Virus record (IMG/VR): IMGVR_UViG_3300044648_000120
Span: 1-41,270 of that record
Reading direction: 5' to 3' (one strand)
Source: a virus
DNA: 41,270 nucleotides
Below, in pieces: positions 3,207-38,591 of the stretch. The translations under genes and the position numbers were made by a program. Each line of letters opens with the position of its first letter. Position 1 is the stretch's first letter. Below the pieces are notes generated by a model. It was not told the origin of the DNA, searched no databases, and was given only the letters and a program-made list of their open reading frames with translations.

Positions 3207-3207
3207 C

Positions 3208-6499: not shown

Positions 6500-6506
6500 T
6501 TCACGT

Positions 6507-8969: not shown

Positions 8970-8971
8970 AG

Positions 8972-10547: not shown

Positions 10548-10548
10548 T

Positions 10549-10989: not shown

Positions 10990-10990
10990 C

Positions 10991-18288: not shown

Positions 18289-18849
18289 TTAATCCGTCAG
18301 GTATGAACCAGAGAAAAAGATGGAAGAGTTATCTCCAAGGACAGCTCGAAGGGTCAGATTGTCATCGGCTGCTAGGGCTGACCACAGATTCGCCGTTGAG
18401 GACAGGCCACGGACAATGAGGGCCACCACTGGGGTGGTGAGAGAATCCCAATAGCAGGGGGCAATAAACGGCGTGCCGGTTTTGATTGGATACGGTAGCC
18501 CACTAATGCTGGCCGTGCTCCCTGTCCCAATCGTGGTAATGCTCAGAACGCACGTTACCGTGACCACGTTCCCAATTTTTGTGTACTGCCCCGAATTATT
18601 TTCTGTCGCGGTGCCACCCACCGTTGGGGTCCAACTGCCAGTTGCGTAGGCGGTGAGTCCGACTGGCGTAGAGGCATGAATCCATGTCGTGCCATTATCC
18701 ACATAGATAGCAGGTGTATCAGTGACATAGATCAGCCGCCCCACAATTCCCGCCGCAGGAAGGTCTGCGAACAGGCATGTGGAGATACCCGAGACCGTGA
18801 CACTTGTAATCACTCCAGAACTGCTCGGCTGTGTATTCCAGGTCGTCAT
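18289..18849 (-). CDS. small tail fibre/appendage protein (186 residues)
   Basis: Residues 70-115 read GLTAYATGSWTPTVGG, then YTKIGNVVTVTCVLSI and ASISGLPYPI, a pattern recurring in C-terminal domains of phage tail fibres and spikes. The N-terminal half has ...LPAAGIVGRLIYVTDTPAIYVDNGTTW, a common short-fibre attachment element when split. The ATG at 18849 overlaps the stop of the adaptor gene (TAATG) and is preferred over a longer start. Confidence 0.65.
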   Translation of the reverse strand: MTTWNTQPSSSGVITSVTVSGISTCLFADLPAAGIVGRLIYVTDTPAIYVDNGTTWIHASTPVGLTAYATGSWTPTVGGTATENNSGQYTKIGNVVTVTCVLSITTIGTGSTASISGLPYPIKTGTPFIAPCYWDSLTTPVVALIVRGLSSTANLWSALAADDNLTLRAVLGDNSSIFFSGSYLTD

Positions 18850-19718
18850 TAGCGTGAGCCCTCGCATTGCGAGTACTGGGGCGAGTCAAAGGCCAGGCGC
18901 TGGAGCTGGGACTGGTACATACTCCAGAAGGCTGGGAACCGCTCATCGTCCCATTCCTGGGCCGTGTACGCCGCCACGCCCTGTATCCAGAGCGAGCGCC
19001 ATTCCCGGAGTAATTGAATGAAGAGTGTGGAGGCTTCATCGACCTTGGATAGGTCGGCATAATAATGATGCACGAGCCCGTACGTGGACTTGTCGGGAGT
19101 CGGCTGTAGATAGAACTCTTGGTTGAAGAGGGCGCAGCGCCTGGGCAAGGACACGTTCGGCTCACTGGATTGGAACCGGCTATAGACCTCGTCAAAGTTG
19201 TCTGGATAGAGGCAGTACCGGGTATTGGCGATCAAGTAAGTCGTGGAACTCGTCGGCGCTGTCGTAAAGTCTGTATCGGGCGTGACCGCTTTTGTCGTGT
19301 TATTGTACGAGACAATTTGCCGGTACTGGCCTGACCCAGTTCCACCAGTCAAGATCATCCACTTGCCCGCCAGCACATCGTCACTTTCACTGAAGCTAGA
19401 GGCCAACGTGATTGTAGAGCTGGTTCCGGTCTGGGCCGTGCCTCGCCATTCGTCTGGACCGTCCAATAAGTACAAGGACAAGGACTGGTTATGATCTTCC
19501 GGAATCGCGTACCGTTGCTGGCCGCGCACCGTTGGCGCGGTGGCGGTAATGGCAAGGAGCCGATTAAACGGCGCGACACGTTGAATGTCAGACTTGATCT
19601 CTTGAATAAAATCGTCTTCAGCCAGATCGATCTGGTCCTGATCGGGATTACGTTGTCCGCCACGCTTGAGACCTTTCGTACAGATCCCAGTAAGTGTAGG
19701 GTTAGATGGAACGGCCAT
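18849..19718 (-). CDS. tail adaptor / head-to-tail connector protein (289 residues)
   Basis: The N-terminal and C-terminal parts are helical and soluble (IDLAEDDFIQEIKSDIQR; LLREWRSLWIQGVAAYTAQE) and enclose a beta module (about residues 90-160) with ILTGGTGSGQYRQIVSY, a G-T-G-x-G-Q-x-R motif found inserted in phage connector/adaptor proteins. The position, two genes before the gp10-like gene in transcription order, fits the ring that joins portal and tail. The exact P22 gp4 relationship is not claimed. Confidence 0.6.
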   Translation of the reverse strand: MAVPSNPTLTGICTKGLKRGGQRNPDQDQIDLAEDDFIQEIKSDIQRVAPFNRLLAITATAPTVRGQQRYAIPEDHNQSLSLYLLDGPDEWRGTAQTGTSSTITLASSFSESDDVLAGKWMILTGGTGSGQYRQIVSYNNTTKAVTPDTDFTTAPTSSTTYLIANTRYCLYPDNFDEVYSRFQSSEPNVSLPRRCALFNQEFYLQPTPDKSTYGLVHHYYADLSKVDEASTLFIQLLREWRSLWIQGVAAYTAQEWDDERFPAFWSMYQSQLQRLAFDSPQYSQCEGSR

Positions 19719-22898: not shown

Positions 22899-23714
22899 TC
22901 AGTAAAAACAGTAAAACGCCACGTCCTGCGCCTCTGCTGTGCCGCTACACTCTGCCCGTACCTGTAACTGTGTCCCGCTAGGAATGCTCACCTGGAAAGG
23001 CGCTGGCGGTATCGGCCCTAATGTAAATTCACCACCGTTCATATTCGACCACCATTCGCAAATCGTCCCGCCACCGATTTGCAGTTCCCAGTGATATTGA
23101 GCTGTCCCGGCGTTCGTATCCGCGAGTGTTCCGCCGATGCCCAGCATCACCGCGCCGTAATGCTTTGAGGTTGTGCTGCCAATGTTTGCCGCAACAGATT
23201 CCGCCCCGCTATTGCCGGGAGTGTGACTCGTGCCTTGCGAGGCTGCCGTGCTGGTGCCGTAGGCATCACAGCCGCTAAATAATGGCCCTGGCATCGCACT
23301 CGCCCCGCCATTGGCGAACATCAGCACGTCGCATGTATCTGCGGTAATCAGGGCCTGGATTCGTCCTGAGACCAGCGTCCCTTTCGGAATGAAGATTGGG
23401 AAGTAGATCGGAGAAATGGCGGCGTTCGGGGTATTGCGCCAACCACATAAGAACTCAGGGACGATCACTGTCTCCTGGCTCCCACCAATCGCAATGTCGA
23501 GGAGCATGTCCGTTTGCGTGCCTGCCGCATTGGTTCCGCCAGCGGCCAGCCAAAAGCCGTACACGTCATACGTGGTGGTCATCAACGTGGCATAGGTGCC
23601 CTTTTCGTGCGGGTTGGCGTGCGCGGTTAGTCGGGTTCCCCAGGCCGTGGAGGGAGACGCGGCAAGGTTACTTTGCCAGATGGCATTCTGAAATTGACGG
23701 TTCAGTGCCAGCAT
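22899..23714 (-). CDS. phage structural protein (271 residues)
   Basis: The sequence is Gly/Ala/Thr-rich with few charges, typical of beta-sandwich virion proteins. Segments such as SPIYFPIFIPKGTLVSGRIQA and PPAPFQVSIPSGTQLQVRAE point to a surface appendage with strand-turn repeats. No specific family was recognised. It follows the beta-helix gene in transcription order with one-base overlap. Confidence 0.5.
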   Translation of the reverse strand: MLALNRQFQNAIWQSNLAASPSTAWGTRLTAHANPHEKGTYATLMTTTYDVYGFWLAAGGTNAAGTQTDMLLDIAIGGSQETVIVPEFLCGWRNTPNAAISPIYFPIFIPKGTLVSGRIQALITADTCDVLMFANGGASAMPGPLFSGCDAYGTSTAASQGTSHTPGNSGAESVAANIGSTTSKHYGAVMLGIGGTLADTNAGTAQYHWELQIGGGTICEWWSNMNGGEFTLGPIPPAPFQVSIPSGTQLQVRAECSGTAEAQDVAFYCFY

Positions 23715-24922
23715 TAAGGCACCGTCACAAAGCCGTTTTTGTCGAAGCGAATCGACTTCCCGCCGACATAGGACAGGAGCCCGATAAAACTCAGGGGGTC
23801 TGCACTCACTTGCACCGAGTTCTCTTGATCATCAATCATGGTCGTATAGTTATTACCCGCCACCATCCCCATCAGCGTGACCGTGGGATTGACCGTCACC
23901 GTGTTGTGGATTTCCAAGAACGTGGTAGAGGACACGCCCGCTTGCAGGGCATTCCCGCCCACGATGGTGAGATTGAACGCGGCCCCGCCGCTGCCGCTCC
24001 CACCAATAGTGACGGCTGGTCCTGGAACCGTGGTCTTTTCGCTCTTAAAGTCGGTAATCTGTAGGCCACCACCCGAATTGAGAATACACAGCGTCACAGG
24101 GTTGTTATCCCCGCCGATGCCGAGCATCGACATGGCGCTGGTAAAATTCTCCAACTTGAATCCGCACACATCACTCGAATTGACCGTCACGTTACGGATG
24201 GTGCCGGTGCCAGAATTGCTCCCAGTCAGATACACCCCATTGCCTTTGCAGTTCACAATGTTCAACTCTGAAATCACGCTGGTCTCACCGATCAGGTAGG
24301 ATTCGACACAGTTATTCGCGGTGGTTTGAAACGCCTTCTGTCCATCCAGCCGAATGTTTTTCAATGACCCGTTATGCCACCAGTTCGTCACTCCAGCACT
24401 AGAGACCAACTTAATCATGGGCACGCTGCAATTCGCATTGTGTCGAATGGTGGTTCCGCCTGGGCTGTTGCGCCCGCTGCCGATCAAGTGCCCGCCCTGC
24501 TGGACCGTGATGGAGGTATTACAGAGCAAGGTATGGAAGACAGGGCCGAGGAGGACCGTGACTCCCGGCGTAATGGTAAAGCCGCTCAATGTGACTGGAT
24601 TCGCAAAACCTCTCGCGTCCACGATGCCGCCAACCCCGGATGGCAACGAAGCAATCGCCGCATTGATCTTGTCGGTAACGGACGTGCCCGGCATCCGGTG
24701 GGCAGGGACACTGACAGCGCACGGCGACTCGCAGAACTTCCGTACGTCCTCCACGGTCGTCTTCACGTCCAGCCCGCCCTGAATGATTCCCACGGTCTCC
24801 GAGCCGGTCAACGGAGTCGAAGCCGACGAGCGTTCGCTAATCTTGCCCGCAAATAATGTAAACGGAATTGCAGCAAGCACCACGAACACGATGAGGGCCG
24901 CTTTCCGTGAGCTAATGTTCAT
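23714..24922 (-). CDS. beta-helix spike-like protein with Sec signal peptide (402 residues)
   Basis: Residues 1-26 are a signal peptide or anchor (KAALIVFVVLAAIPFTLFA). From about residue 75 the chain is a right-handed beta-helix: short strand-turn repeats such as VDARGFANPVTLSGFTI, GSLKNIRLDG, ELNIVNCKGNGVYLTG and GTIRNVTVNSSD. Such folds occur in pectate lyases and tailspikes that cut or bind polysaccharide; no catalytic residues could be identified. A signal peptide is not expected for a virion spike assembled in the cytoplasm, so export to the host envelope is possible. Confidence 0.65.
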   Translation of the reverse strand: MNISSRKAALIVFVVLAAIPFTLFAGKISERSSASTPLTGSETVGIIQGGLDVKTTVEDVRKFCESPCAVSVPAHRMPGTSVTDKINAAIASLPSGVGGIVDARGFANPVTLSGFTITPGVTVLLGPVFHTLLCNTSITVQQGGHLIGSGRNSPGGTTIRHNANCSVPMIKLVSSAGVTNWWHNGSLKNIRLDGQKAFQTTANNCVESYLIGETSVISELNIVNCKGNGVYLTGSNSGTGTIRNVTVNSSDVCGFKLENFTSAMSMLGIGGDNNPVTLCILNSGGGLQITDFKSEKTTVPGPAVTIGGSGSGGAAFNLTIVGGNALQAGVSSTTFLEIHNTVTVNPTVTLMGMVAGNNYTTMIDDQENSVQVSADPLSFIGLLSYVGGKSIRFDKNGFVTVP

Positions 24923-24934
24923 GTCATACCCTTT

Positions 24935-26233
24935 CTAATTTTGCCCGCGTATGGTCGTGCGCGTGGTCATGGCCAGATCCATGCGGCTCGCCACACCGGT
25001 GAGGGTCGCGGCCCCGACTGCACCGGTTATTTGCGAGACGGATTCCTGAATAAAGAGTACGGCACGTTTCCTGGCTGTGGCGGCGACGTTGGCCGTGGTG
25101 TAGTTAAAGGTACAGCCATCGCTATCGAAGCTGGTAAGGGTGGCCACCTGAAAGTCCGCAGCCCCGCGTCTGAGGAAGACCGGCTTCGCGTCAGTGACTG
25201 ATTCGTTATCATGAGGGTTCACGTTATCCTCAGCCCAGACCGCCGAGCAGCCCTGTGCGGAGGAGGTAAAGGCGCTGATCCCTAATACCTCGGCATTGAC
25301 ATCGGTCGTGATTGTATCCACTGCTGTCACGGCGGAGTGCAGCATCAAGCCGAACTGTGGGGTAAACCCTGCGCCGGTAATGCTATGAGAGCCGGTTCCT
25401 GTAGGCGAGTCAGACGTGAGCAGTTTGGCGCTGATCCCGCTCAACTTAATCGCCATGTACCAGCCTTCCCAGCCAACGGCGGAGCTACGGACAATCAAGC
25501 TAAACCCGTTCGCGTCAAAGTCTTGGCACTGTATCTCGGTTCCGCCTGCGCCTGCCGAGGCAGACCTGGCAATGCGATTCGTGGTGAGGACTGAGACGGA
25601 TTGTGAGGGGTTAAATGTTTGTCCAGCGCGCCAACTCAGCCCGCGCTGAGTCGCTGAACCATCATTGACGCAGATACCGTAGCAGCAATCGAAATTGCTA
25701 TTAGCTGAGTCATTGAAGCTGAAGTTGGCTCCGTTCGTGCCGATAAATACAATGTCTGGCGTGAAGCCTGGCTCAGTAATATCATCGCCAGAGCCGATCA
25801 CGGCCCCAGTGTTGAACGAGTCCACATATACATTCGAGACACCGTTCCCGCCAAGCAGGACGCAAGTCACGAGATAGGCCGATGGAGGCGCATCGGTCCA
25901 ATTGATGCGGACCCCGTCAGTGATCCAGGAACTGAACTCTGCGGCTCCGTCAATGGCTCCGCTGGTTGCAAGCAACGTAATAACTGGCTTGGTCGTGCTT
26001 TCATGGCTCGTGGTCGTAGTTGTGCCTGTATCGGCCCGGCCCGCGTTTGCCTTTGACCGCGTTCCGTCCGTGGCTCCAACTGACAGCATAGCTTCAGTCA
26101 CTGCCGTGCCACCCACCGTGCCATACGTAAGAAAGAACAGGGCCCCCTTTGGCGTGCCGAATCCTGTGCTGGTAAAGTCCTGCGTACCGAGTGAGGTGCT
26201 GGCTGCTTGCTGGACAACTGCAAAATCTGCCAT
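24935..26233 (-). CDS. phage structural protein (432 residues)
   Basis: Beta-rich, Gly/Thr/Ser/Ala-rich and low in charge. Repeated strand segments such as SVSVLTTNRIARSASA and GSHSITGAGFTPQFGLML suggest two related jelly-roll-like halves. No family was recognised. It lies between two beta-helix genes and is probably a virion surface or fibre protein. Confidence 0.5.
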   Translation of the reverse strand: MADFAVVQQAASTSLGTQDFTSTGFGTPKGALFFLTYGTVGGTAVTEAMLSVGATDGTRSKANAGRADTGTTTTTSHESTTKPVITLLATSGAIDGAAEFSSWITDGVRINWTDAPPSAYLVTCVLLGGNGVSNVYVDSFNTGAVIGSGDDITEPGFTPDIVFIGTNGANFSFNDSANSNFDCCYGICVNDGSATQRGLSWRAGQTFNPSQSVSVLTTNRIARSASAGAGGTEIQCQDFDANGFSLIVRSSAVGWEGWYMAIKLSGISAKLLTSDSPTGTGSHSITGAGFTPQFGLMLHSAVTAVDTITTDVNAEVLGISAFTSSAQGCSAVWAEDNVNPHDNESVTDAKPVFLRRGAADFQVATLTSFDSDGCTFNYTTANVAATARKRAVLFIQESVSQITGAVGAATLTGVASRMDLAMTTRTTIRGQN

Positions 26234-26236
26234 GGT

Positions 26237-28912
26237 CTAGCTCTCACTCTCTTCTCTATTGAGATCAAGGATACGTGTAATTCTTACATTCGTCGGCGGA
26301 GCTGGCGGGCCCTCATCAGACGGCGGCGGGGGAGGATCAGGATCGGTCCAGGCCCCTATCAGTAACTCTCCTGGCACTTCCACAATGAAGGCATCGAGTC
26401 GGCTCCCGCCTAAGTTACTCGTCCACATGAAATAGCGCCCGGTAATGTCAAGCGCCCCTTTCGGGAGCTTGCAATAGTTCTGGTCTGAGCACCCAGCCCC
26501 ATTGCCTCCCGTGGCGTTGAGGCGGCTCATTAAGGGGGCCACAATCAACTGTTGGAGCGGCGCTGTGCCGTCAGCCCTGGCGCAGACCAGTTCATTTTCG
26601 TGTGTGTTCGTGTCAGCGGTGCTCCCGCAGAAATATTGATTACTAAGCGGACGTGTCGTGGTCGGGACCGCGTTGGAATGCGTGATATGGTTCATGATCG
26701 CCGCTGTAAAGCTGGCGCTGTAATGCAGGGTCGTCGTCGTCATCGGATCGGTGAAGAAATAGCGAGCCGACCTGGACGGTTCGGTGCCGTGACCATCCTG
26801 ACCAATGATGTAGTTGTAACCTGTATCGACGTGAGCAAGATTGCCGACCGAAGAGGTACGCCGAAATTCGACCCCTGTGGTGTTATTAAAGATCCGGTTG
26901 ACTTCATCGTTCGGCACCCCGACATCTTCCTGGCTCATCGTCCAGGTGCCGGTCCGATCGAGAATGCACTCATCGAAAGTGGCCCCGGTGATGGTGGGAT
27001 AGAAACGGAAGATATTCGTGGTACTGTTATAGACGAGGCAGCCGAGATAGCCTCCGCTCGTCGTGCGCAAGGCCCCGCCATGGATCGTGTCGTTGTAGTT
27101 ACTGTGCCAGGCCCAGAGGTTTCTCGGACAGTTGCCAGTGACGCAGCCGAGGCTCGTACTGGAGCCGTCTGGAAGCAGCGCCGTGCGGTTCGTAATATCG
27201 ACCACCGTTTCGGCGGTCTGGGAAATAATGTCGTAGCGTTTCAACTGGTAGTCCTGGAGGTAGTACAGCTTGGTCGCCTGCCCATAGCTGAAGTACATCA
27301 TTTCCCCGGTGCTGCCCTGTTGCACGGAAAAGCCAGATGGGAACAGGTTCCCTAGTTTCGTCACGACACCCGTGGCCTTCGTGAGCTTCATCAGGGTCAT
27401 GCCTGCCCCGCCGTTAAGCTGGCTCAGACCCACGATGATATACATATCCGCCTGGCCTGTATGGTTATTCATCTGCATCCAGTAGGAATAACCGTGGTAA
27501 TTTACGCAGTCTTGGCCAGCACAATCGGTAGGAATAGTCAGCCTATACCCACGAGTGTTGTACGGCGAAGGGAACGTAAACGCTCCCCGGCTTGCGGTCA
27601 TAAAGGCGCTGATTTGTGTCGTCGTCAGTTTCGTGCGCGTGAAGGCCGACCCGGTGGGTTCGATGAATCCTGGGGAGCCAGACGAGCTGAACTCGTCAGC
27701 ACCAATGTCATAGGGGGCGCTCCGTGGATGGCCCTCGTAGTCAGTCGTCACGATGGAGATGGTCGTCCCGGCGTTGATCGCTGGGCTGCCGGATTGCAGA
27801 TGGAAATCCCCAGTGGCCGCATTCACAAAGAGCGGATTGACACCGAAGAGGTTGAACGTCTGCGTGGTCGTACAGGTGCTACAGTTCAGATAGTTAGCAA
27901 TCTGGTTGAGGTAGCTGATGTTATTCTGGATCACCGAGTTCAACGGCGGGCCTGTTGAGGTCGCTGTCTGTGTCAGAATCCCGTAACCGTTATTATTATA
28001 AACGGTGTTGTTCCAGACCTTGGTATTGTCGGCACCACCACCCACGCGAATGCCTTGAGTATAGCCGTTGGCGATGCCTCCTGGCGCGACGGCCCGGCCT
28101 TCGTTGTAGATGATGTTGTTGTAGACCTGGGCGTTACTTATCTGCCCGCCCCCATTGGCTGGCGTTTCCTCCATAATGGTAATGCCCCCGACTTGGGAGG
28201 AGGCGCACCAGTTGTTGTCATGAATGACGTTGTTCCTCATGACGATGTTGAGAATGGGGCCAGGATAAATGTGCAGCCCACCTCCTGGGTTGTTGTCCAT
28301 CTCATTATTTTCGATCAGCACCCGATCAGCATCGTGAACATAGACGGCGTACCAGCGTGGAACACAATCCGTTCTGGCGTGGTGAATACGCATGCCCCGG
28401 ATAATCGCGTCATGGCCACCATCCACATAGAAGCCGTTGTCAGTTTGATTCTTGACTTCCCCACCGATAAACCACATGCCCGCGCCTGTGACGCGGATGC
28501 CCCGCGCATTCGTGGAGCCGTTCAAGTGGTTGACGCCGTCAAAGACAATGTTCTCAAACGTGGTGTAGGTTGGGCTATCATCCGTGATTGCCCTGGCTCC
28601 CGACACCGGTTGAATTATCGCGGTCTCGGTGGGATAGCTCGCAATGGTGATACGGTTGGTCGAGAACCCTTTCTTGGTCCCCATCGTGATCGTCGTGCTC
28701 GTGTACGTGCCGCCGCGCAGATACAGCGTATCGCCTGGATTCACACAGTTCACAATCGCGTTGTTAGGCGTCCGCTTCGGCGTGGCAACATTCGTCGCCT
28801 GCGAGCATAGGCGGTTATCGTCCCCAGCCGTTGGATGGACGTAATAGGTCGCCGCCCACGCCTCACTGCCCAGACCGAGCAGTAAGGCGCTGATCAGTAT
28901 CAGGTAACGCAT
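26237..28912 (-). CDS. secreted beta-helix protein (891 residues), NosD/pectate-lyase-like
   Basis: Residues 1-20 are a textbook Sec signal (RYLILISALLLGLGSEAWA with A-x-A cleavage). A right-handed beta-helix covers about residues 21-380 (TLYLRGGTYTS, RVLIENNEMDNN, NIVMRNNVIHDNN, NAQVYNNIIYNEG). It closes with GDFHLQSGSPAINAGT and APYDIGADEF, as in secreted bacterial beta-helix proteins. A second large domain of about 450 residues follows, propeller-like in pattern, then a Pro-rich tail ending in PPAPPTNVRITRIL. The bacterial style of the helix and the signal suggest capture from a bacterial extracellular protein. Function: polysaccharide binding or cutting is possible, unproved. Confidence 0.65.
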   Translation of the reverse strand: MRYLILISALLLGLGSEAWAATYYVHPTAGDDNRLCSQATNVATPKRTPNNAIVNCVNPGDTLYLRGGTYTSTTITMGTKKGFSTNRITIASYPTETAIIQPVSGARAITDDSPTYTTFENIVFDGVNHLNGSTNARGIRVTGAGMWFIGGEVKNQTDNGFYVDGGHDAIIRGMRIHHARTDCVPRWYAVYVHDADRVLIENNEMDNNPGGGLHIYPGPILNIVMRNNVIHDNNWCASSQVGGITIMEETPANGGGQISNAQVYNNIIYNEGRAVAPGGIANGYTQGIRVGGGADNTKVWNNTVYNNNGYGILTQTATSTGPPLNSVIQNNISYLNQIANYLNCSTCTTTQTFNLFGVNPLFVNAATGDFHLQSGSPAINAGTTISIVTTDYEGHPRSAPYDIGADEFSSSGSPGFIEPTGSAFTRTKLTTTQISAFMTASRGAFTFPSPYNTRGYRLTIPTDCAGQDCVNYHGYSYWMQMNNHTGQADMYIIVGLSQLNGGAGMTLMKLTKATGVVTKLGNLFPSGFSVQQGSTGEMMYFSYGQATKLYYLQDYQLKRYDIISQTAETVVDITNRTALLPDGSSTSLGCVTGNCPRNLWAWHSNYNDTIHGGALRTTSGGYLGCLVYNSTTNIFRFYPTITGATFDECILDRTGTWTMSQEDVGVPNDEVNRIFNNTTGVEFRRTSSVGNLAHVDTGYNYIIGQDGHGTEPSRSARYFFTDPMTTTTLHYSASFTAAIMNHITHSNAVPTTTRPLSNQYFCGSTADTNTHENELVCARADGTAPLQQLIVAPLMSRLNATGGNGAGCSDQNYCKLPKGALDITGRYFMWTSNLGGSRLDAFIVEVPGELLIGAWTDPDPPPPPSDEGPPAPPTNVRITRILDLNREESES

Positions 28913-29385: not shown

Positions 29386-30891
29386 TTACTTCTCTCCTTG
29401 TTGATCTGCGAGTGACGCTCCCACTTCCAGAACATGGCGCAGGAGGCCGTCACCATAAATTTCAATTTCCACTTCATCGCGCATGACTTGCAGCATGTCG
29501 ATAAACTGCTGGGCCTGCGCAGCCATCCAGGGATGGCAATGGAACACTCTGCCGTCATTGAGCATGACTGGTGCGACAATGTCGGTATCGTTCTCAGGTT
29601 GCTCGTAGGCGTGATGCGTAGACTTGTCTGACGCCAGACAGGAATCACACCCGAACAGATGAAACTTCTTGAAGCCGAGCTGTCGCAGGAGGAAGAACGA
29701 AGTCACCAGCACGGTGGTCGCACTCGGGATCGGGTAGACCGGTCCCTGGTACTCGGCATTGATCACATCTTCAATGCTGTCGTACATGGTATGCCACATC
29801 AATGTACGTGACTTTGGCAATCCTGCGAACACACTCGGATGACACTGGGAGGCAATGAGATAGCGCACGTGCAGGAGGCCATCGACAACCTCCTGCGAGA
29901 GGCCCTCAGTTGAGCCATGAATCTTCCCTTCATCGTCCATGCAGGGCTTTGTGAACCGTGCATTAAACGGACGACTATCGACCATGAGCTGGCAACTGGG
30001 AATGAGACCGTGCTGGAGCGCCCAATTATACGTGCCATTTAACGTGATCAATTTCACGCCATTGGCTCGCATCTGCTGGATCGTTTCAAGCTGTCCTTGC
30101 AGGGATGGACCCCCGCCGACAATCATCACTTCCATGTCATTTTCGACATGGGGCTGAACGTGTGCCCAGCCGTCCTTGCAATTTTGCTGGACATTGGCCC
30201 GAATGTTCTCTCTTGATTCATTCACGCCACCGGCCTTGACCAGATCATTGCCCGTGCTCCAGCCACTGACATAGAACAGGGCATAGTCCTGTATCTCGGC
30301 AGACCAATGGATGACGCACTCCCGTTTCTTGAAATGCTCCATCCACCAGTCATACGGTTGTACAGTCAGGTGCAATTGTTCCCCGATCAGTTTCCCGCAA
30401 TGATCAGGAGCGGTACAGATCGCAAAGAACACGTGCTGCGCTGACCCGAGAATGTTATTGATCACCTGATCGACCTTATCAGTCGGAATGTGCTCCATCA
30501 CGTCTGTGCAGTAGCCGTATTCCGAGATCAAGCCAATAGGCTTTTCAAGATCCTTCTTGACGAACTTGAGCGAGTCAGAGTGAACTTCACAGGCCTTCGC
30601 CACCTCAGAGTCGAGGCAGTTCTTGACGAAGTCGATCATCGTGACCTTCATCCCGCCGACTGTGGCAAGATGAAATGCCCCGCGCCCGGTCCCGCAGCCG
30701 AAGTCAATCAGCGTGGTCCCAGGTTTGGGCTTTGCGTGATCCAGGAACGTCTTGGCAAACTCTTCCCCAGGCGCAACCGCACGGTACTCTGGATGATCTG
30801 CCCAGAGCTTCCCGTACTTCATCGCCTCGGGATTCCCTTGTCCTTGACCCACTACTGGCGCAAAGCCCTCGACTCCTGCCCGTGTCGTCAT
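29386..30891 (-). CDS. fusion: class I methyltransferase + MptE-like (DUF115) domain (501 residues)
   Basis: Residues 40-215 form a SAM-dependent methyltransferase: motif I is L-I-D-F-G-C-G-T-G-R-G (63-71) and a post-motif TDVMEHIP lies at about 129-136. Residues 253-500 match the DUF115/MptE-like domain (V-G-G-G-P-S-L at 258-264, LMVDSRPFN at 302-310, HLFGCDSCLAS). DUF115 is known from flagellin-modifying and hydroxymethylpterin pyrophosphokinase proteins. Together they may modify a surface sugar or protein. The gene sits among head and fibre genes, so the target may be the virion or the host envelope. No signal is present. Confidence 0.7.
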   Translation of the reverse strand: MTTRAGVEGFAPVVGQGQGNPEAMKYGKLWADHPEYRAVAPGEEFAKTFLDHAKPKPGTTLIDFGCGTGRGAFHLATVGGMKVTMIDFVKNCLDSEVAKACEVHSDSLKFVKKDLEKPIGLISEYGYCTDVMEHIPTDKVDQVINNILGSAQHVFFAICTAPDHCGKLIGEQLHLTVQPYDWWMEHFKKRECVIHWSAEIQDYALFYVSGWSTGNDLVKAGGVNESRENIRANVQQNCKDGWAHVQPHVENDMEVMIVGGGPSLQGQLETIQQMRANGVKLITLNGTYNWALQHGLIPSCQLMVDSRPFNARFTKPCMDDEGKIHGSTEGLSQEVVDGLLHVRYLIASQCHPSVFAGLPKSRTLMWHTMYDSIEDVINAEYQGPVYPIPSATTVLVTSFFLLRQLGFKKFHLFGCDSCLASDKSTHHAYEQPENDTDIVAPVMLNDGRVFHCHPWMAAQAQQFIDMLQVMRDEVEIEIYGDGLLRHVLEVGASLADQQGEK

Positions 30892-31037
30892 TATGTCCCT
30901 GTTCCTAAGGTTGAACTTTCCTTGCAGGCCCGTGCCGCAAACATGCTGCTCTGGACGACTGCCCCAGTGCCTGATGTGGCGCTGGCGCTGCTCGTCTCGG
31001 TGGACCCTGCCGTTGGTGTGATCGGTGTATCAGCCAT
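30891..31037 (-). CDS. small Ser/Thr/Ala-rich protein (48 residues)
   Basis: The ATG at 31037 follows the stop of the previous gene by three bases and the stop overlaps the start of the methyltransferase fusion (TAATG). The product is low in charge (TPITPTAGSTETSSASATSG) with one Cys. A small virion protein is possible, but the only evidence is tight packing in the operon. Confidence 0.45.
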   Translation of the reverse strand: MADTPITPTAGSTETSSASATSGTGAVVQSSMFAARACKESSTLGTGT

Positions 31038-31039
31038 CG

Positions 31040-31363
31040 TTACAGCATGATATTGACATCAAGTGCTGTACTTGGAGCCGTGCTATTAGCACGTCCAGTC
31101 GTGCCAGCGATCGTGAACCCGCTGCCACCAAGATCCACCAGACAGCCAGGGGCAATGACTTTGCCACTGTTAGCGGGAATCTCAATGGTCATGAGCGGGG
31201 TCGTGGTGCCGACCGTCACATCACCTGAGGCCAGGTTAAAGACTTGAAGGAACGACACGGCAGCATTATTGTTGCCAATGTCAATGACACTGAACCGGCA
31301 CCGCGTGCCGTCCACTGCCACTTTCGTGTTACTGACTGCGCCGGAATAGGCTTTTAACAGCAT
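31040..31363 (-). CDS. small head/decoration-type protein (107 residues)
   Basis: A beta-rich Gly/Ala/Thr/Val protein without catalytic residues (TPLMTIEIPANSGKVIAPGC, GFTIAGTTGRAN). Similar size and composition are found in capsid decoration proteins. No family was recognised. It lies among capsid-proximal genes. Confidence 0.5.
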   Translation of the reverse strand: MLLKAYSGAVSNTKVAVDGTRCRFSVIDIGNNNAAVSFLQVFNLASGDVTVGTTTPLMTIEIPANSGKVIAPGCLVDLGGSGFTIAGTTGRANSTAPSTALDVNIML

Positions 31364-31381
31364 CGTGCTACCTCATTCCGG

Positions 31382-32026
31382 TTAGTACAGTGAACCTAAT
31401 GCTGTGGTCGGCATGGCGGCAGGCGCAGCCATTCCGTCTGGTCCACGCATCCGTTTCGGTGAATAGACCATTTCAAGTCCCAGGAGGAACTTGTCCTCGG
31501 CCAGGCCCACGTCAAAGGCATCCATCTCGACCTGGACGGCGAGGATTTCCACGTCCTGGGTCAAGGTGCCGCCCGCGAGTACCCCATACGCAGTCACTTG
31601 ATAATCATAGGCACCAGTCACGTCCTGCGCTGCCACGACAGTCGTCAACGCATTCGACGCTGCTGCAATCGTGGTCACGTTCGGGACGATCCCGAGATAG
31701 AACACTTTCCAGGTCACCGTGTCTGCGGTATCCGCAGAACCGGAAGTCCAATGCACGCGGAATTTGATGTCTTTCTTCAAATCCACGTCATAGGGCAACA
31801 TGAAGTTATGATCGAGCGCATCGGCTGCCGTATCCATGAGGACCGCGTTCAAGCCGAACGTGCTGATCTCTTGCTGGACCGGCGCACCAGGCCCGGTTCC
31901 TGCGCTGACACCCGCCGCACCAATCAGGCCAGTAAATTCACTGACCGGAATGTAGAGGCGTCCCGGACGCCACGAGAGCGACTTGTCAGAATAGATTCGG
32001 TTCGGAGAATCGAGATTGCTGTGCAT
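31382..32026 (-). CDS. phage structural protein (214 residues)
   Basis: A beta-rich structural protein: LYIPVSEFTGLIGAAG, an early GAPVQQEISTF, a centre with LPYDVDLKKDIKFRVHW and WKVFYLGIVPNVTTI, and a short hydrophilic tail. The ATG at 32026 has AAAGGAATTG upstream. No specific family was recognised. Upstream in transcription order lies the hairpin at 32038-32078. Confidence 0.5.
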   Translation of the reverse strand: MHSNLDSPNRIYSDKSLSWRPGRLYIPVSEFTGLIGAAGVSAGTGPGAPVQQEISTFGLNAVLMDTAADALDHNFMLPYDVDLKKDIKFRVHWTSGSADTADTVTWKVFYLGIVPNVTTIAAASNALTTVVAAQDVTGAYDYQVTAYGVLAGGTLTQDVEILAVQVEMDAFDVGLAEDKFLLGLEMVYSPKRMRGPDGMAAPAAMPTTALGSLY

Positions 32027-32037
32027 CAATTCCTTTC

Positions 32038-32078
32038 GTCACTCGGGCGGGGCCGCACAAGCCCCGCCGTCTGGTGAC
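32038..32078 (-). terminator. strong GC hairpin between two head genes
   Basis: GGCGGGGC (32046-32053), a 7-base loop, and GCCCCGCC (32061-32068) form a perfect 8-pair stem; outer arms GTCAC (32038-32042) and GTGAC (32074-32078) extend it around small internal loops. There is no U-tract, so it is not a classical intrinsic terminator. It may lower read-through or protect the 3' end of the mRNA of the capsid genes. The next ribosome site begins directly after it. Confidence 0.5.
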
Positions 32079-32080
32079 AT

Positions 32081-32416
32081 TTACCGCCAAGCGATAAAGT
32101 TATAAGTCTTCAGAGCTTCTTGGACGGAGGCATCGGTGCCCACCGAGAAACCATGGTTGGTTCCATCGGTCTGGGCGACCGTGCTGATACCACCGGATGT
32201 CACTGCCACTCCGGCATCGGTCATGCCGTGCGCGGCTGTCATGTCGTTAGTCCAGGTCAATCCCACATCTTTGTCAGTCGCATTGATGACTTGCACCATG
32301 CGGGGCACGAAACCAATGTTGATGTAGGACAAGGAGACGGTCGAGGCACAGACGTACTTGCCCATGACCGGCCCACCGGGAAGTCCTGCTTGAATCGTAA
32401 CTGTCGCTGCTCCCAT
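32081..32416 (-). CDS. small structural protein (111 residues)
   Basis: A beta-rich protein (VQVINATDKDVGLTWTNDM, VTSGGISTVAQTDG) without charge clusters. It is read just before the strong hairpin and after the 116-residue gene. Probably a capsid accessory or decoration protein from position; no family was recognised. Confidence 0.5.
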   Translation of the reverse strand: MGAATVTIQAGLPGGPVMGKYVCASTVSLSYINIGFVPRMVQVINATDKDVGLTWTNDMTAAHGMTDAGVAVTSGGISTVAQTDGTNHGFSVGTDASVQEALKTYNFIAWR

Positions 32417-32419
32417 TGT

Positions 32420-32770
32420 TTACTCCTCAATGACGTGATAATCGTTGATGTACTGATATTCCTGCTTCCGTTGATGCAGTTCGGACTGATTGCGTCCAGA
32501 CCCACCACTGACCCGGTCCACGTCATGTGGCGTGCTCATCCCACCGGCCTTACCAGAGACCATGCTCTTGGCATCCTTGAGGGCATTGACCACGCTACGA
32601 GGCAGTTTCTGACGTTCGCCAAAGACTGCCTCGTACTCGTAGCCGTTGATATTCACGGGCACGCTATAACGCTTGTTCGGGTCCATGAACTGTTGCCGCT
32701 CCAGATAGAACGACACCTGTTCTTCTTCGTCAGGACTCGGGTACTGTTTAATCGATCTTCCGTTGCTCAT
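32420..32770 (-). CDS. virion-associated-type protein (116 residues)
   Basis: The central stretch VPVNINGYEYEAVFGERQKLPRSVVNAL, read in parts, resembles a small head-protein family in which V-x-I-N-G, a basic turn and L-P-x-x-V-V are conserved. The remainder is polar. The ATG at 32770 has AAGGAGG 11 bases upstream, and longer starts lack a site. Function unknown. Confidence 0.5.
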   Translation of the reverse strand: MSNGRSIKQYPSPDEEEQVSFYLERQQFMDPNKRYSVPVNINGYEYEAVFGERQKLPRSVVNALKDAKSMVSGKAGGMSTPHDVDRVSGGSGRNQSELHQRKQEYQYINDYHVIEE

Positions 32771-32777
32771 GAGTACG

Positions 32778-33002
32778 TCAGCCTCCTTGTTTGGCCCATT
32801 TGTACAGGGCATCCTCTTCTGTGGTGATCTGCTTATCGACCTTCACTTCCAGTTCGGGTGCCCGCCGCTTGTCCGACGCCTTCTTCCGGCACACATTCTT
32901 GGCGAAGTAATCGGCATGCGCATACGCCTGAGCTTTCGAGAGGCCGCGTTGAATCGGCCTCCCGTCCAAGTACACGCTATAGACGTTCTCACTAATCGGC
33001 AT
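32778..33002 (-). CDS. small unknown protein directly after the capsid gene (74 residues)
   Basis: The ATG at 33002 overlaps the capsid stop (TAATG) and is preferred over a longer in-frame start. The product is basic, partly helical (RGLSKAQAYAHADYFAKNV) and acidic near its end. No family was recognised; a capsid accessory role is possible. Confidence 0.55.
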   Translation of the reverse strand: MPISENVYSVYLDGRPIQRGLSKAQAYAHADYFAKNVCRKKASDKRRAPELEVKVDKQITTEEDALYKWAKQGG

Positions 33003-34018
33003 TACAAGCTCGCGGCACACTCAATACGGCACAGCCAGCTCTCGTTGGTCCGCAACCGCGCACCGACTGTCTTCCAGCCGATGGTCGCAATCTGCTCCAA
33101 TGGATCAGCCGCACCTGCCGAGCCGAGGGGCTTGGCGTAGAAGTTCGAGGTCTTCCCGGACAAGGGCACCTTGGTGAACCCGTTCTGCCCGAAAATCATG
33201 ATGCTGTAGACATCGACGGTCCCAGTTGAGTTCTTGACCAGTGAGGATGTTCCACCTCCACCGGCCCATTTCTTTCCACCCGCACCGAGGGACGAAGGAT
33301 CGGACGCCTCGAAGAATGCGAGCTGCTTGTAGCGGCCCACTTCTCCATCGACTCCACCCTTGTACTCAGACGCCCACTTGAACCCGGTGATGTTCTGGAG
33401 ATCGAAAATCACATCCGGGAGCGTGATTGCTGGCCATGCGGCCATCGTGGGGTAGCTGTTCTCGGAGCTGTTCGAGCTGTTCCCGCCCAGCATCTTCTCC
33501 GCCCCGTTGTTGGACAACGTACGGATCGCACGATCGAGGTCATTGAAGTCCACGATCTCGGTCACGTCCGTTCGGTTCGTGCCGTTTGAGCGAATGACGG
33601 TTGTTCCGCCAACCGCTGTATCCCGATCGACTGCATCGATCGTATAGCCTTCCTGTTCGCCCAGGAGCATCGTCCAGTGCTGGAGGATCGGATCTTTCTG
33701 TGTCCATTGCGCAAAATCAGACATGGCAATGAAATCGCCGTGCTGATAGAGCTGCGCCGTGTAGTCATCGAGTGACGGGGTCTTGCCCGCAGGCGCTTGT
33801 CCTTCTGTCAAGGGCGACAGGGCCAAGGCGAGGTGCAACCACCGGCGCATGATAATGTGCTTGCCTTCCTTGGAAGGAAGTTCCGAGGACGCGGCCCAGC
33901 GTGCGTGATAGTTCCGGTACTTCGCACGGGTGAGCAACTTCTTGCTGAAATAGGCCTGGGTTACGTCCGGGGACGAACTCAGATCCGTTACGAGGTTCGT
34001 TGAAACAACTGTCGCCAT
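33002..34018 (-). CDS. major capsid protein, N4-gp56 family
   Basis: A 338-residue protein with the layout of N4-gp56-like major capsid proteins: an N-terminal arm (QAYFSKKLLTRAKYRNYHARW), a conserved segment LSPLTEGQAPAG, then YTAQLYQHGDFIAMSDFAQW and DPILQHWTMLLGEQ. The rest is beta-rich. TAGGAGTC lies about 10 bases before the ATG. It follows scaffold and portal in transcription order, the usual arrangement. The HK97-type fold is expected from the family. Confidence 0.8.
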   Translation of the reverse strand: MATVVSTNLVTDLSSSPDVTQAYFSKKLLTRAKYRNYHARWAASSELPSKEGKHIIMRRWLHLALALSPLTEGQAPAGKTPSLDDYTAQLYQHGDFIAMSDFAQWTQKDPILQHWTMLLGEQEGYTIDAVDRDTAVGGTTVIRSNGTNRTDVTEIVDFNDLDRAIRTLSNNGAEKMLGGNSSNSSENSYPTMAAWPAITLPDVIFDLQNITGFKWASEYKGGVDGEVGRYKQLAFFEASDPSSLGAGGKKWAGGGGTSSLVKNSTGTVDVYSIMIFGQNGFTKVPLSGKTSNFYAKPLGSAGAADPLEQIATIGWKTVGARLRTNESWLCRIECAASL

Positions 34019-34022
34019 GGAT

Positions 34023-34862
34023 TTAGACTCCTAAGAGCTTCCGCTCGTAGGCTGCAAATTCAGCCGGGGACATATTGTCAATGTCTTTGGCCGTCACGGC
34101 TCCTGACTTCACTGCGGCTGGACCACCAGCCCCGGACACGACCGCTTTCTTCAAATTCGTGTTCAGGCTCTTGAGCAACTTGCCACGATCTTGCTGGACG
34201 GCAGCTTTCGCATCCCGTCCCGTCTGGGCAGCGGCATAGGCCACAGCCAGCGCCTTCGTGGTGTTATTGTCTGGATAGCCCGCCCGTACCAGTGCGTCAA
34301 AGCGTGACGATGCAGCTTGATAGAGCGGCGAACTCATGTTTTGTAAGTCGGTTTGATAATGCTGAAGAACCTGGACGCTTTCCGTTTCCAGTTGCTGCTC
34401 TGCCGTGCGCTTGGTCGAGACGGTTTCAAACTCGTGTCTGGCCCGCTCGTACGCAATTTCACGATCGTGGAGCCGCACCTGTTCATCGGCCTGAAGCCGT
34501 TCCGCTTCAGACAGGTTCGGATTGCGGTAATACTGAGCCCACTTGTTCCGCTCCGCTTCCAACTGCTTCCACTTCGGCTCTGCCGCTGTGGCTTGCACGG
34601 TGGGAGTTTTGCGCATCGCAGACAGTTCACCGGCCATACGGCTGGCTTCCCGTTGCGATTCGAGATAGGCCCGCTCCAGTTCCTCAGGACTCTGATACTT
34701 GCCAGCCCAGGCCCGCGTCTCGAATGAGGGTTGCTCCGTAGAGGCCTCAGTCGTCTCGGTCTCTGGCGCTGCGACTGCTTCCTGAGTCTCAGGCGCGACG
34801 GCCTCTGCAACGGGTTGCTCCTGTTCGGAGGCCGCTGTGTCGAGGGTTGCGTCGTCTTCCAT
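34023..34862 (-). CDS. capsid scaffold protein (279 residues)
   Basis: The N-terminal 60 residues are acidic and Pro/Ala/Thr/Glu-rich. The centre is strongly helical and coiled-coil-like (LERAYLESQREASRMAGE, KQLEAERNKWAQYY, RHEFETVSTKRTAEQQLE), and the C-terminus contains a helix-turn (SPAEFAAYERKLLGV). This is the standard appearance of scaffold proteins. The gene lies between portal and capsid and has the strong site AAGGAGTCAT. Confidence 0.75.
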   Translation of the reverse strand: MEDDATLDTAASEQEQPVAEAVAPETQEAVAAPETETTEASTEQPSFETRAWAGKYQSPEELERAYLESQREASRMAGELSAMRKTPTVQATAAEPKWKQLEAERNKWAQYYRNPNLSEAERLQADEQVRLHDREIAYERARHEFETVSTKRTAEQQLETESVQVLQHYQTDLQNMSSPLYQAASSRFDALVRAGYPDNNTTKALAVAYAAAQTGRDAKAAVQQDRGKLLKSLNTNLKKAVVSGAGGPAAVKSGAVTAKDIDNMSPAEFAAYERKLLGV

Positions 34863-34880
34863 ATGACTCCTTCCTAAAAG

Positions 34881-36887
34881 TTATTGGCTCGTGTTGACGC
34901 CGTTGGCACCCTGGCCCTGGCCTGCGCCAAGTACCTTCGCCAGTCCTTCATTTGGCTGGCCCATTCCCTGCTTCGCTAAGGCTTGCCCAATCGTTTCCTT
35001 GTAGGGCACATCTGACGCATCAAGCATGATCTGCGGCGGCACCGGCATTCCGGCTGCGGCCAGTTGCATGAGCTGGTTGAACTGCGACTGTCTTGCGGTC
35101 GAACTCGCTTCCACGAGTCCCACGACCACGTCAAAGTCAATGTCCTTGATCTTGGTATAGTTCGCGTACTGCACCTGGGGCGGAATCATCACAGGAATGC
35201 CCAGGAGTTGTTGCACGCGATATTCCTGGCCAATGATCCGGTCCATCTTCTCGGGCGAATGGAACTGTTGAATGCGCTTGGCGAGGAGCATGCCCGTGTA
35301 CTGCTTGGTCCGTTTCCAGTTATTAAAAATAGACGCGAGCCCGGTCATGCCACCCGCTTGGGAGGCCATCACGGCCCGGCCCGATCGGGTTGTGGCCGTA
35401 TCGCCCCCGACCATGGACCCGCGCACGCCAGAGATCTCAGCGGCAAAGTCCCGGCCAATCTCCATCATGGCGAGGTCGCCAGGGGAGAAGGAGCCTGGAG
35501 GCCAGTATTGCGGCATGGCTCCGTTAAAGGTCCCGATAAAGCCTGCACGCGGGAGTCGTTTCTTCAAATCTTCAATGTTCGGGTTACTGGCGGCATCCAG
35601 CCATGTCGCGCCCTTTGGGGCTCTGGCTAACGTGTCAATGGCCGTGCTATGGTGCCAGTTAATTTCCCGCTGCGGGTCCTTAATGTCACGTGTCACGCCC
35701 TTCCAGTCGTCGAACGATTCGCCGTCACCAAAAGGACAGAAGAAGGAGAAGGGATAGCGCCAGTCATCTTCATAGGGCGAGGGCTTGTCGTCGAGCAGTT
35801 CCCAGCCGGTCAGGTGTGCCACCCGTAAGGCGTAGGCTTCACGCTTCATCACTTCAAAGTTCGCAGCGGCGGCGTTGCCTGCTTCAGCCCGGACCGTTTC
35901 AATGAACTGATCACCCTCATTCGAATCGGCAATAGGCATGATCCCGCCCGTTTGCAGATTCTGGAGCCCGTACAGATTCTGCTCTTGCAGGACCTGGAAC
36001 TGGGACGCGGCCTGCTTCCCGGCCTGGTCGTACACGTTCCTGATATAGGCCTCGGCCTCTTGCCCGTTCTTGACCCGGATAACGGCCTTGGCCGGGTCCA
36101 TCTCCGCTTTATTGACAATGAGTGTGGCCGTGACATTGATGCGATACCAGTGCTGTAAGACCCGGATGCGATCGCCTTCCTTGTCGTACAGTTCACGGAG
36201 CAAGTGCTCAGGGACACCGGTTGTGGTCGGATCGTAGGGGAGCCAGTCCTCGCTATGGAGCTTCCCGGCAGAATCAGGCCATTGCTTGTCGGCCTTCTCC
36301 CGCGTGTACCACATCAGCTTCTGCTGCCATGCGGCGTCACATTTATCGTAGCGTCTAGCGAGCGTATCGCAGGCCCAGCTATTCATGGCGAGGTACGTGA
36401 GCCCGATGTCACCTTCGATCAGGTCATCGGTCCACATATAGTCATGGGCCACTTCCAGGACGGCGGGGCCGACAATACAGCCCATACGGAACTGCTTGCC
36501 TTCCTCGTGATAGCCGCCTGAGCGGTCCATGACGTACTTGACCTGGGCGGTGAGAATGCGCCCGAGCTGTTCGTCTTCTGTTCCACGGGGGAAGTAGCGG
36601 TAATCGGTTTCGCGCTGTTCCTGCAACCCGCAGATGAAATTGATCGTGGACTGGCAGATATTGAATGATAAGGCAGGGCGTTCTTCAGCCTTGAGTTTGG
36701 TGTAATCACCTTCATCCCACTGTTTAATCCCGCCCACGACAAAGTCCAAATCTTGTTTCACGTTTCGGCGCAAGGCCTCAGTCGTGTCAAAATAGGACTT
36801 GTAACACTTGACGATCTCCTGGACCCGTTCACGGGTCTTGGCCGATTCGTCAGATTTTGGTTTGGATTCTTTCTTCTTGCGTGCCAT
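34881..36887 (-). CDS. portal protein, P22-like
   Basis: A 668-residue protein close to the length of P22 portal (725). The N-terminal region reads LDFVVGGIKQWDEGDY, then RPALSFNICQSTINFICGL and QRETDYRYFPRG, which match the P22-portal family. It forms the twelve-subunit ring through which DNA enters and leaves the head. A central helical region includes SGVRGSMVGGDTATTRSG; the tail is Gln/Gly-rich. The terminase lies upstream in transcription order and the scaffold downstream. The ribosome site is weak. Confidence 0.85.
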   Translation of the reverse strand: MARKKKESKPKSDESAKTRERVQEIVKCYKSYFDTTEALRRNVKQDLDFVVGGIKQWDEGDYTKLKAEERPALSFNICQSTINFICGLQEQRETDYRYFPRGTEDEQLGRILTAQVKYVMDRSGGYHEEGKQFRMGCIVGPAVLEVAHDYMWTDDLIEGDIGLTYLAMNSWACDTLARRYDKCDAAWQQKLMWYTREKADKQWPDSAGKLHSEDWLPYDPTTTGVPEHLLRELYDKEGDRIRVLQHWYRINVTATLIVNKAEMDPAKAVIRVKNGQEAEAYIRNVYDQAGKQAASQFQVLQEQNLYGLQNLQTGGIMPIADSNEGDQFIETVRAEAGNAAAANFEVMKREAYALRVAHLTGWELLDDKPSPYEDDWRYPFSFFCPFGDGESFDDWKGVTRDIKDPQREINWHHSTAIDTLARAPKGATWLDAASNPNIEDLKKRLPRAGFIGTFNGAMPQYWPPGSFSPGDLAMMEIGRDFAAEISGVRGSMVGGDTATTRSGRAVMASQAGGMTGLASIFNNWKRTKQYTGMLLAKRIQQFHSPEKMDRIIGQEYRVQQLLGIPVMIPPQVQYANYTKIKDIDFDVVVGLVEASSTARQSQFNQLMQLAAAGMPVPPQIMLDASDVPYKETIGQALAKQGMGQPNEGLAKVLGAGQGQGANGVNTSQ

Positions 36888-36913
36888 GTAGTCTTTGTGG
36901 TACGTTAAGTGCT

Positions 36914-37132
36914 ATGGAATTTACGTGGGAGACCCTGTCAAAGTTCTTGCTTCAGAATCGCCATTGCTATCGGTCTTCGCTCGACCCGTACTATGATGGC
37001 GATGTCCCCTATGTGGCCATCGATGGAGCGATCACCAAAACAGATTTTGACGAATTTATACGGTCATCCAACTCCCGCCAGAAGGCTGAGACGCCGCAAA
37101 CGGATTCAGCCGCGCCCGCATCTCCTGAATAA
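36914..37132 (+). CDS. plus-strand small protein between terminase and portal (72 residues)
   Basis: The 168-base gap between the leftward terminase and portal genes holds this plus-strand reading. Its product (ETLSKFLLQNRHCYRSSLDP, YDGDVPYVAIDGAITKTDF, tail rich in Pro, Ala and Ser) looks like a real soluble protein, and the gap is otherwise unexplained. No good ribosome site is present, and the last 77 bases are antisense to terminase. A candidate promoter is TTGCGT-18-TACGTT just upstream, weak. It may be a second moron-like gene. Confidence 0.4.
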   Translation: MEFTWETLSKFLLQNRHCYRSSLDPYYDGDVPYVAIDGAITKTDFDEFIRSSNSRQKAETPQTDSAAPASPE

Positions 37133-38591
37133 TTTCTAGTGGCGATTTCTTCCGCACCTCTTCTTGCAATACCGGCTGGGCCGGGACGAGCGAGAGGAAA
37201 TAGCGCGTTTCATCAATCGTATGATCGTTGTAATCAATCGGTTCATCCGGCGCATTGCGCAACACCGAGCCTTTCGCCTTCTTCCACTTGTAATTGCTCA
37301 TCTCCCGCAGCCAGTTCCGGCACGAGGTAAAGGACAGGAGCCGGGGCGAGCCCTGTGCGCCTGTCACCGGATGGATCAGCTTTGGGTCAACAGTCAGTCC
37401 TTCGTTAATGCGGTTAAAGCCTGACGCCCATTCGTTCTGGCCAAAGAGCGGGAACACGTCATTGGCGTTATATTCATCTACGACACTGAATACGCGCCCG
37501 TCCTTGGACTGGTTCCTGGCCCCGCAGGCCGGATCGATACAGATCCAGACCGGTTTATTGGGCAAGTCACTGGTCAAATGCTTGAGCACGGTCGCGTGAT
37601 AGGACACGGGCTTGCCCCCGCCCTCGTAATGTTCTCGCACGCGAATGCGATGGCCCTGTGGCGTGACGGCCCACACGCCAATTGACGTGGGATTGGTCAA
37701 ACCATGGTCAATCGACACGTAATAGGACCAGTTGGCCTCCAGTTTGATGGGTGGAATGCCGTGCAGGTTCGGGTCAAACTGGGAAAAGACCTTGCCCTCG
37801 AACACGTCCCAGGAGCCCTCGAGGTAACGCTTCCGTGCTGCCTCGGGATAGATGGCCACCATGGCATCGACATAGTCTTTCGTGAGAAAGCCAGCGGCCA
37901 ATCCGTCATAGGTCGTCGCCTGGTAAAGCTGGTAGTCCGGTTGCTTCTGTGGAGAGTCCGGGTGGAACCACTTCCACAGGTACGAACCCGTCCCATCCGG
38001 GTTGAAGGTACAGAAGCCGTAGGTGGGCGCAATCAATTGTTTGCCGTCCCGACCAATCAAAGGCTTCCCGCCATCTCCGAATAGTGGCGTGATCCGCCGC
38101 AGACGACTGACCCCGTGCTTCCATCGTGCTTCGTCCGTTTCCTCAGCCTGATCGAACCAGAACCAGCCCAGGTTTAAGGAGCTGGCCCACTCTTCTTTCT
38201 TCAAATCGCCGTAATAAATCTCAGAACCGCCGTATTTCTTCTTAAACTTGATATAGCCCATCTGCTTGTTGTGCGATTCAAAGAACTGTTCCGGCACGAG
38301 CCGGAAAAACTCACTCATCGTGGTCTGGACAAGTTCCTTTCCGTCCCAACGGCCAATGTATCCACAATTTCCAGGAAAGCATACGGACAGAAACCAAGCG
38401 AGCGTAACTCCACTAGATGTTTTGCCGTTTCCCAGCCCACCACCGAAGCCTCGAAATCGCTTGCTCCAGTCGTGGACAAAGTCTGACTGGGGCTGGAGGA
38501 AGCCGGGCTGGTCCGGGTTCCAGAGATTGAGCGGCCACTCGAAAACTTTGCGCTCTTGCTGCTTGTCACGTAGCTGTTTCCTCCCGGCCAT
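37056..38591 (-). CDS. large terminase subunit (packaging ATPase-nuclease)
   Basis: A 511-residue protein. Walker A is GGGLGNGKTSS at residues 50-60; Walker B is LGWFWFDQAEE at about 141-151. The RNase H-like nuclease has acidic residues in YVSIDHG (D295), ICIDPAC (D353) and HTIDETRYFL (D460). It cuts and translocates DNA into the procapsid through the portal. The downstream gene is the portal. The small subunit is not identified with certainty; the 219-residue first late gene is a candidate. Confidence 0.9.
   Translation of the reverse strand: MAGRKQLRDKQQERKVFEWPLNLWNPDQPGFLQPQSDFVHDWSKRFRGFGGGLGNGKTSSGVTLAWFLSVCFPGNCGYIGRWDGKELVQTTMSEFFRLVPEQFFESHNKQMGYIKFKKKYGGSEIYYGDLKKEEWASSLNLGWFWFDQAEETDEARWKHGVSRLRRITPLFGDGGKPLIGRDGKQLIAPTYGFCTFNPDGTGSYLWKWFHPDSPQKQPDYQLYQATTYDGLAAGFLTKDYVDAMVAIYPEAARKRYLEGSWDVFEGKVFSQFDPNLHGIPPIKLEANWSYYVSIDHGLTNPTSIGVWAVTPQGHRIRVREHYEGGGKPVSYHATVLKHLTSDLPNKPVWICIDPACGARNQSKDGRVFSVVDEYNANDVFPLFGQNEWASGFNRINEGLTVDPKLIHPVTGAQGSPRLLSFTSCRNWLREMSNYKWKKAKGSVLRNAPDEPIDYNDHTIDETRYFLSLVPAQPVLQEEVRKKSPLEIIQEMRARLNPFAASQPSGGSWMTV

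Follow-up and report, generated by a model that had tools for sequence, protein, structure and literature searches.

The uncultured short-tailed phage of IMG/VR record IMGVR_UViG_3300044648_000120 and two of its relatives probably carry a swappable set of spike-like exported proteins among their virion genes. Sequence comparison leans towards an exchangeable virion-operon cassette of Sec-exported, disulfide-stabilised, glycan-directed proteins in this podovirus group. Two such proteins, of 402 and 891 aa, are encoded in the window (the whole podovirus-like contig of 41,270 bases); they probably leave the cytoplasm before lysis, unlike normal phage spikes. Their export, disulfides, glycan target, timing and final location are what we infer from the evidence below.

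Signal-bearing genes in the virion operons

The genes that define the context of the two proteins are the following.

37056-38591, minus strand: terminase
34881-36887, minus strand: portal
33002-34018, minus strand: major capsid protein
18849-19718, minus strand: SU10-type adaptor
26237-28912, minus strand: 891-aa signal-bearing beta-helix protein, whole ORF, ATG start
24935-26233, minus strand: 432-aa signal-less ORF, between the 891-aa and 402-aa ORFs
23714-24922, minus strand: 402-aa signal-bearing spike-like protein, whole ORF, ATG start

The 402-aa and 891-aa genes sit in the virion operon, where they abut neighbouring genes or overlap them by one base. The usual assumption is that tail spikes are made in the cytoplasm and carry no export signal; both proteins have signal-type N-termini. 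Signals were called by a home-made rule combining charge, hydrophobic core and the -3/-1 rule, which in a benchmark of 111 E. coli proteins found 16 of the 18 exported ones, with false positives mostly among membrane proteins and lipoproteins. The initial annotation had described two ORFs with signal peptides in a virion module, and these are the only two calls among the 55 picked window ORFs; none were obtained for T7 (0/39) or PEp14 (0/37). The signal of the 891-aa protein, MRYLILISALLLGLGSEAWA followed by ATYY, has the clear A-x-A cleavage site (AWA before AT) that had been noticed earlier. The signal of the 402-aa protein, MNISSRKAALIVFVVLAAIPFTLFA followed by GKIS, has a strongly hydrophobic core, an n-region charge of +2 and a weaker site, L-F-A. 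After shuffling of the first 50 residues, the rule was still passed by 1.2% of shuffles for the 891-aa protein and by 12.6% for the 402-aa protein; the composition of the latter is thus weak evidence alone, and the claim is carried by comparative evidence.

Another signal-type N-terminus, MMRPLLLACVIALLPASTSA followed by FHDG, was found in an 80-aa ORF (10991-11233, minus strand), which adjoins the probable lysis genes, has a near-identical start in the related record G002 and stands outside the window counts, having been lost by the overlap filter of the ORF picker.

Scans of IMG/VR gave only five related records, most of them fragments; no cassette was seen in the fragments G003 and G004. 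In G001, five signal-bearing genes lie at 4464-11191 (clustering p 0.0014); in G005, five lie at 29676-37778, around a signal-less spike (clustering p 0.0097). The beta-helix relatives of the 891-aa protein, of 930 aa in G001 and of 1259 and 577 aa in G005, are signal-bearing too, and A-x-A-type cleavage sites are present in other cassette genes. The cassette genes vary between G001, G005 and the window. Residues 53-146 of a signal-bearing 147-aa protein of G005 are 49% identical to a signal-less 93-aa protein of podovirus MW202785, which adjoins the capsid gene; the G005 protein is the second example of a virion-module protein bearing a signal. Against an export cassette counts G002, in which the spike in the slot of the 402-aa gene has no signal. 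Among 50,697 named phages, no homologues of the 402-aa and 891-aa proteins, or of the 930-aa and 453-aa proteins of G001, were found.

Two further genes were observed beside or within the cassettes. Just before the cassette, both the window (29386-30891, minus strand) and G001 (2791-4476) contain a methyltransferase/PF01973 (MptE-like) fusion, which may modify virion or surface glycans. Inside the cassette of G005, at 33757-33990 (L058:13757-13990), lies an ORF of 77 aa whose start, MTRRAFLRWTLQLTALAVCAPLVAVGAAWA, is twin-arginine-like.

Modular structure of the 402-aa protein

By comparison with the related phages, the 402-aa protein is a chimera of a signal, a spike adaptor and a body.

24848-24922, minus strand: Sec-type signal sequence, residues 1-25 (LFA before GK); codons 2-25 are missing in G002
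24737-24847, minus strand: spike adaptor motif GKISERSSASTPLTGSETVGIIQGGLDVKTTVEDV, residues 26-62, matching the N-termini of signal-less spikes
23717-24736, minus strand: body, with eight cysteines conserved in G001 and the beta-helix start at about residues 70-150
24935-24948, minus strand: copy 1 of the near-exact repeat GCGGGCAARATTAG (14 bp), where the 432-aa gene ends
24837-24850, minus strand: copy 2 of the repeat, at the signal/adaptor junction

The same slot in G002 is occupied by the gene of a 611-aa spike. The two phages have nearly the same DNA just upstream, ribosome-binding site included, and in G002 the adaptor GGTAAAATTAGCGAACG (GKISER...) directly follows the ATG, with no signal; in the window, the ATG and the adaptor are separated by exactly 24 codons, which encode the signal sequence. 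The adaptor is 61% identical to the signal-less spike N-terminus of G002 and 53% identical to that of G005; in a comparison of substitutions with G002, 22/35 residues are identical and pN is 0.25 against pS 0.70. The G005 N-terminus belongs to a 421-aa protein, a recognisable tail spike with matches to the PHROG tail spikes and to Pfam Pect-lyase_RHGA_epim. The sole homologue of the 402 body, encoded in G001, is 72% identical (dN/dS about 0.11), lacks the adaptor and carries an unrelated, equally good signal peptide, MKLAFRFLVGLALFGVTSGAVA followed by A, so that a signal is present in both proteins known to contain this body. These comparisons with G001, G002 and G005 indicate three separate modules, namely the signal, the adaptor and the body. 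The 14-bp repeat is a possible recombination point for swapping the signal.

No in-frame start was found between the hydrophobic segment and the adaptor. The nearest alternative starts, GTG at codons 12, 14 and 15 and TTG at codon 38, lie within the hydrophobic segment and within the adaptor, respectively, so no alternative start drops the former yet keeps the latter. A start downstream of the hydrophobic segment in close relatives, which had been named earlier as an argument against export, is present in the G002 adaptor gene, which has another body, whereas the G001 homologue of the 402 body has a signal of its own.

The adaptor bears on a competing explanation, according to which the proteins are exported but are true virion parts, namely tail spikes that mature with disulfides in the periplasm and are added at lysis to particles that are otherwise complete. 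In podoviruses, the spike is the last part added, and purified spike can be used to complete P22 tails. The 402-aa protein retains the spike adaptor after its signal, the genes adjoin those of the virion operon or share a single base with them, and the 147-aa protein of G005 resembles a virion-module protein; the G001 homologue, however, has a signal but no adaptor, and the 891-aa protein is likewise without an adaptor and looks like the free enzymes that bacteria secrete. We regard this explanation as possible, with the odds against it. A related and somewhat more doubtful proposal, for which the adaptor conserved between the window and G002 gives scope, is that some of the receptor-binding parts are built outside the cytoplasm: spike-type proteins would be Sec-exported, disulfide-bonded in the periplasm and fitted at lysis, with signal and adaptor swapped as modules.

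The 891-aa protein and its probably glycan-directed fold

In the 891-aa protein, the following regions are distinguished.

28853-28912, minus strand: Sec-type signal peptide, residues 1-20 (AWA before AT), from the rule and cellular homologues
27689-28852, minus strand: right-handed beta-helix, residues 21-408, from the model and from fold and profile matches
27689-27817, minus strand: choice-of-anchor Q domain (GDFHLQSGSPAINAG ... IGADEF), residues 366-408, NF041518
26240-27688, minus strand: C-terminal half, 89% identical to G002 where comparable, with eight conserved cysteines

Beta-helix folds had been suggested for both proteins. That of the 891-aa protein was confirmed for residues about 18-409 (model pLDDT mostly 70-95); the model of the 402-aa protein, which has few homologues (mean pLDDT 45), is confident only at residues ~70-150 and gave no significant fold match. 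The best solved fold match of the 891-aa protein is pectate lyase Pel9A (PL9, 1ru4; Z 37.3, 340 residues, 2.4 A), followed by a rhamnogalacturonan lyase (Z 36); phage tail spikes scored lower (Z 25-28). The matches comprise polysaccharide lyases, epimerases and hydrolases. An alignment profile searched against the PDB matched PL9 with E 1.6e-8 and also found GH120-type structures, while single protein sequences gave chance matches only. In the profile alignment with 1ru4, which is weak in this part, the DD..D cluster, which we take to be the PL9 calcium ligands, lies opposite mostly non-acidic positions, and the comparison with PL9 identified no catalytic residues.

The likeness to bacterial secreted proteins, proposed in the initial annotation from the closing motifs, was borne out. 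The motifs belong to the choice-of-anchor Q domain, and NCBIfam model NF041518 matched at 40 bits (cut-off 25). Among 84,980 prokaryote genomes, 46 relatives were found, the best in two Nitrospira-group genomes, where they lie in exopolysaccharide loci near genes of glycosyltransferases and sugar aminotransferases. In nearly all of those cellular relatives that were examined, a signal peptide immediately precedes a YYV/FYV start, as in the 891-aa protein. The simplest reading of these sequences is that the phage captured a secreted bacterial gene, and the product is most likely a beta-helix protein of the type that bacteria secrete, which binds glycan or acts on it as an enzyme. In the C-terminal half, no Pfam match was found; a beta-propeller, suspected there by eye, was dropped, as no test supported it. 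The relatives in G001 and G005 have other C-terminal halves (LamG-like in G005). Nitrospira as the host is a lead, not a result: among the 175 Nitrospira-family genomes scanned, the capsid protein was matched at just 22-29% identity in 2/175, and the 402 body was absent from all.

The fold matches to lyases, epimerases and hydrolases are also as expected if the exported products strip or mask the host glycan receptor, so that progeny or rivals are not re-adsorbed to infected cells and debris. Variability between related phages, as expected of receptor-specific parts, and lambda Lom as a precedent favour this explanation, but the genes are positioned in the late virion operon, and the proteins contain no anchor or barrel; we consider it unlikely.

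Cysteine content provides a line of evidence for the favoured export reading. Mature cassette proteins contain 1.93% cysteine, compared with 0.86% in other virion-operon proteins (p 5e-5) and 0.4-0.5% in the virion regions of T7, PEp14 and BcepC6B. Cysteine counts are even in 10/11 cassette proteins (p 0.006) and in 17/33 signal-less proteins; the test was devised after inspection of the sequences, and there is partial homology among the proteins. The 402-aa protein and its G001 homologue have eight cysteines each, at matching places, and in the comparable part of the 891-aa protein 8/8 are kept in G002. The pattern fits disulfide folding outside the cytoplasm, as support and not as proof. Purifying selection acts on both genes (dN/dS 0.11 for the 402-aa and 0.09 for the 891-aa protein).

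The same evidence bears on the question of whether the hydrophobic N-termini are uncleaved membrane anchors or chance starts on ordinary cytoplasmic spikes. The weak L-F-A site of the 402-aa protein and its pass rate on shuffling are compatible with this; the unrelated signal of the G001 homologue, the A-x-A-type sites of other cassette genes, the even, conserved cysteines and the secreted cellular homologues speak against it and make it improbable. A chimeric misassembly, in which bacterial secreted genes were misjoined into phage DNA and to which the resemblance of the 891-aa protein to Nitrospira genes might point, is rejected as highly improbable by synteny in the independent contig G002, which has the same 432, 271, 138 and 918 neighbours and an 89% identical 891 C-terminal half, and by a GC content equal to that of the genome.

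The export proposed in the initial annotation is thus supported at the sequence level by the differing signals of homologues, the 24-codon segment, the cassettes of two phages and the paired conserved cysteines. According to the proposed mechanism, the two proteins would be made late from the exchangeable accessory cassette. Their Sec signal peptides would direct them across the inner membrane of the host, which is probably diderm; signal peptidase I would remove the signals, and the mature proteins would fold in the periplasm and form disulfides there. Lysis would then release them to bind or cut extracellular glycan. The 402-aa protein would be of tail-spike type, diverted from its usual route by the signal peptide added to it, and would act free or join the tail at lysis; the retained adaptor makes the latter plausible. 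If true, exported spike-like, disulfide-rich glycan proteins would add a late-infection step, in which either spikes are fitted late or the matrix or capsule is conditioned, at lysis or ahead of it, and would affect both the search for depolymerase genes and their expression. Related phages that have one adaptor either behind a signal peptide or without it represent a comparative natural experiment.

Comparison with known systems

Use of Sec by phages is established for endolysins (Lys44, SAR endolysins; PMC6116005). These are likewise late phage proteins exported via host Sec, but they act on peptidoglycan for lysis, and no peptidoglycan hydrolase domain was found in the 402-aa and 891-aa proteins with Pfam and PHROG. 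Lambda Lom is an exported gene amid tail genes (PMC12309495), and the phage-encoded variable proteins in a survey of diversity-generating retroelements are without signal peptides (PMC6199706). The esterase gp40 of PBR31 is described as having a signal peptide and as resembling tail-associated hydrolases; it differs from the proteins described here in being an SGNH esterase near lysis genes, proposed there to help lysis (PMC10975493). In the open-access literature searched on exported phage tail proteins, endolysins, Lom and the PBR31 esterase turned up, but no exported cassette of several genes for spike-like proteins.

In the cultured podophages BcepC6B (gp19, L077:20959-22032) and PBR31 (orf035, L079:5932-6741), the gene that follows the spike or fibre gene encodes a fibre-like protein with a signal, so a signal on a protein beside a spike is not unprecedented. 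Both contain the sequence ATLxPIQLLNPAGSTSGQ and are annotated as tail fiber or structural protein; the excerpts of the PBR31 paper do not discuss the orf035 signal. In contrast to the window, each is a single protein, with no beta-helix match, no adaptor and no cassette.

Secreted PL9-like/choice-of-anchor Q proteins (Pel9A, rhamnogalacturonan lyase, the Nitrospira paralogues) share with the 891-aa protein the signal before YYV, the fold and NF041518. The 891-aa protein differs from them in being phage-encoded in a virion operon and in its extra phage-specific C-terminal half, and from PL9 in that the calcium-ligand cluster is not aligned, in a weak alignment. Compared with phage tail spikes, it is without an adaptor and closer to free enzymes (Z 37 against 25-28). 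Tail spikes of the P22/Sf6/HK620 type share the beta-helix, confirmed for the 891-aa protein, and the virion-operon position, and the adaptor of the 402-aa protein is common to the spike genes of the relatives; the proteins described here differ from these spikes in the Sec signal peptide and in many cysteines, even in number.
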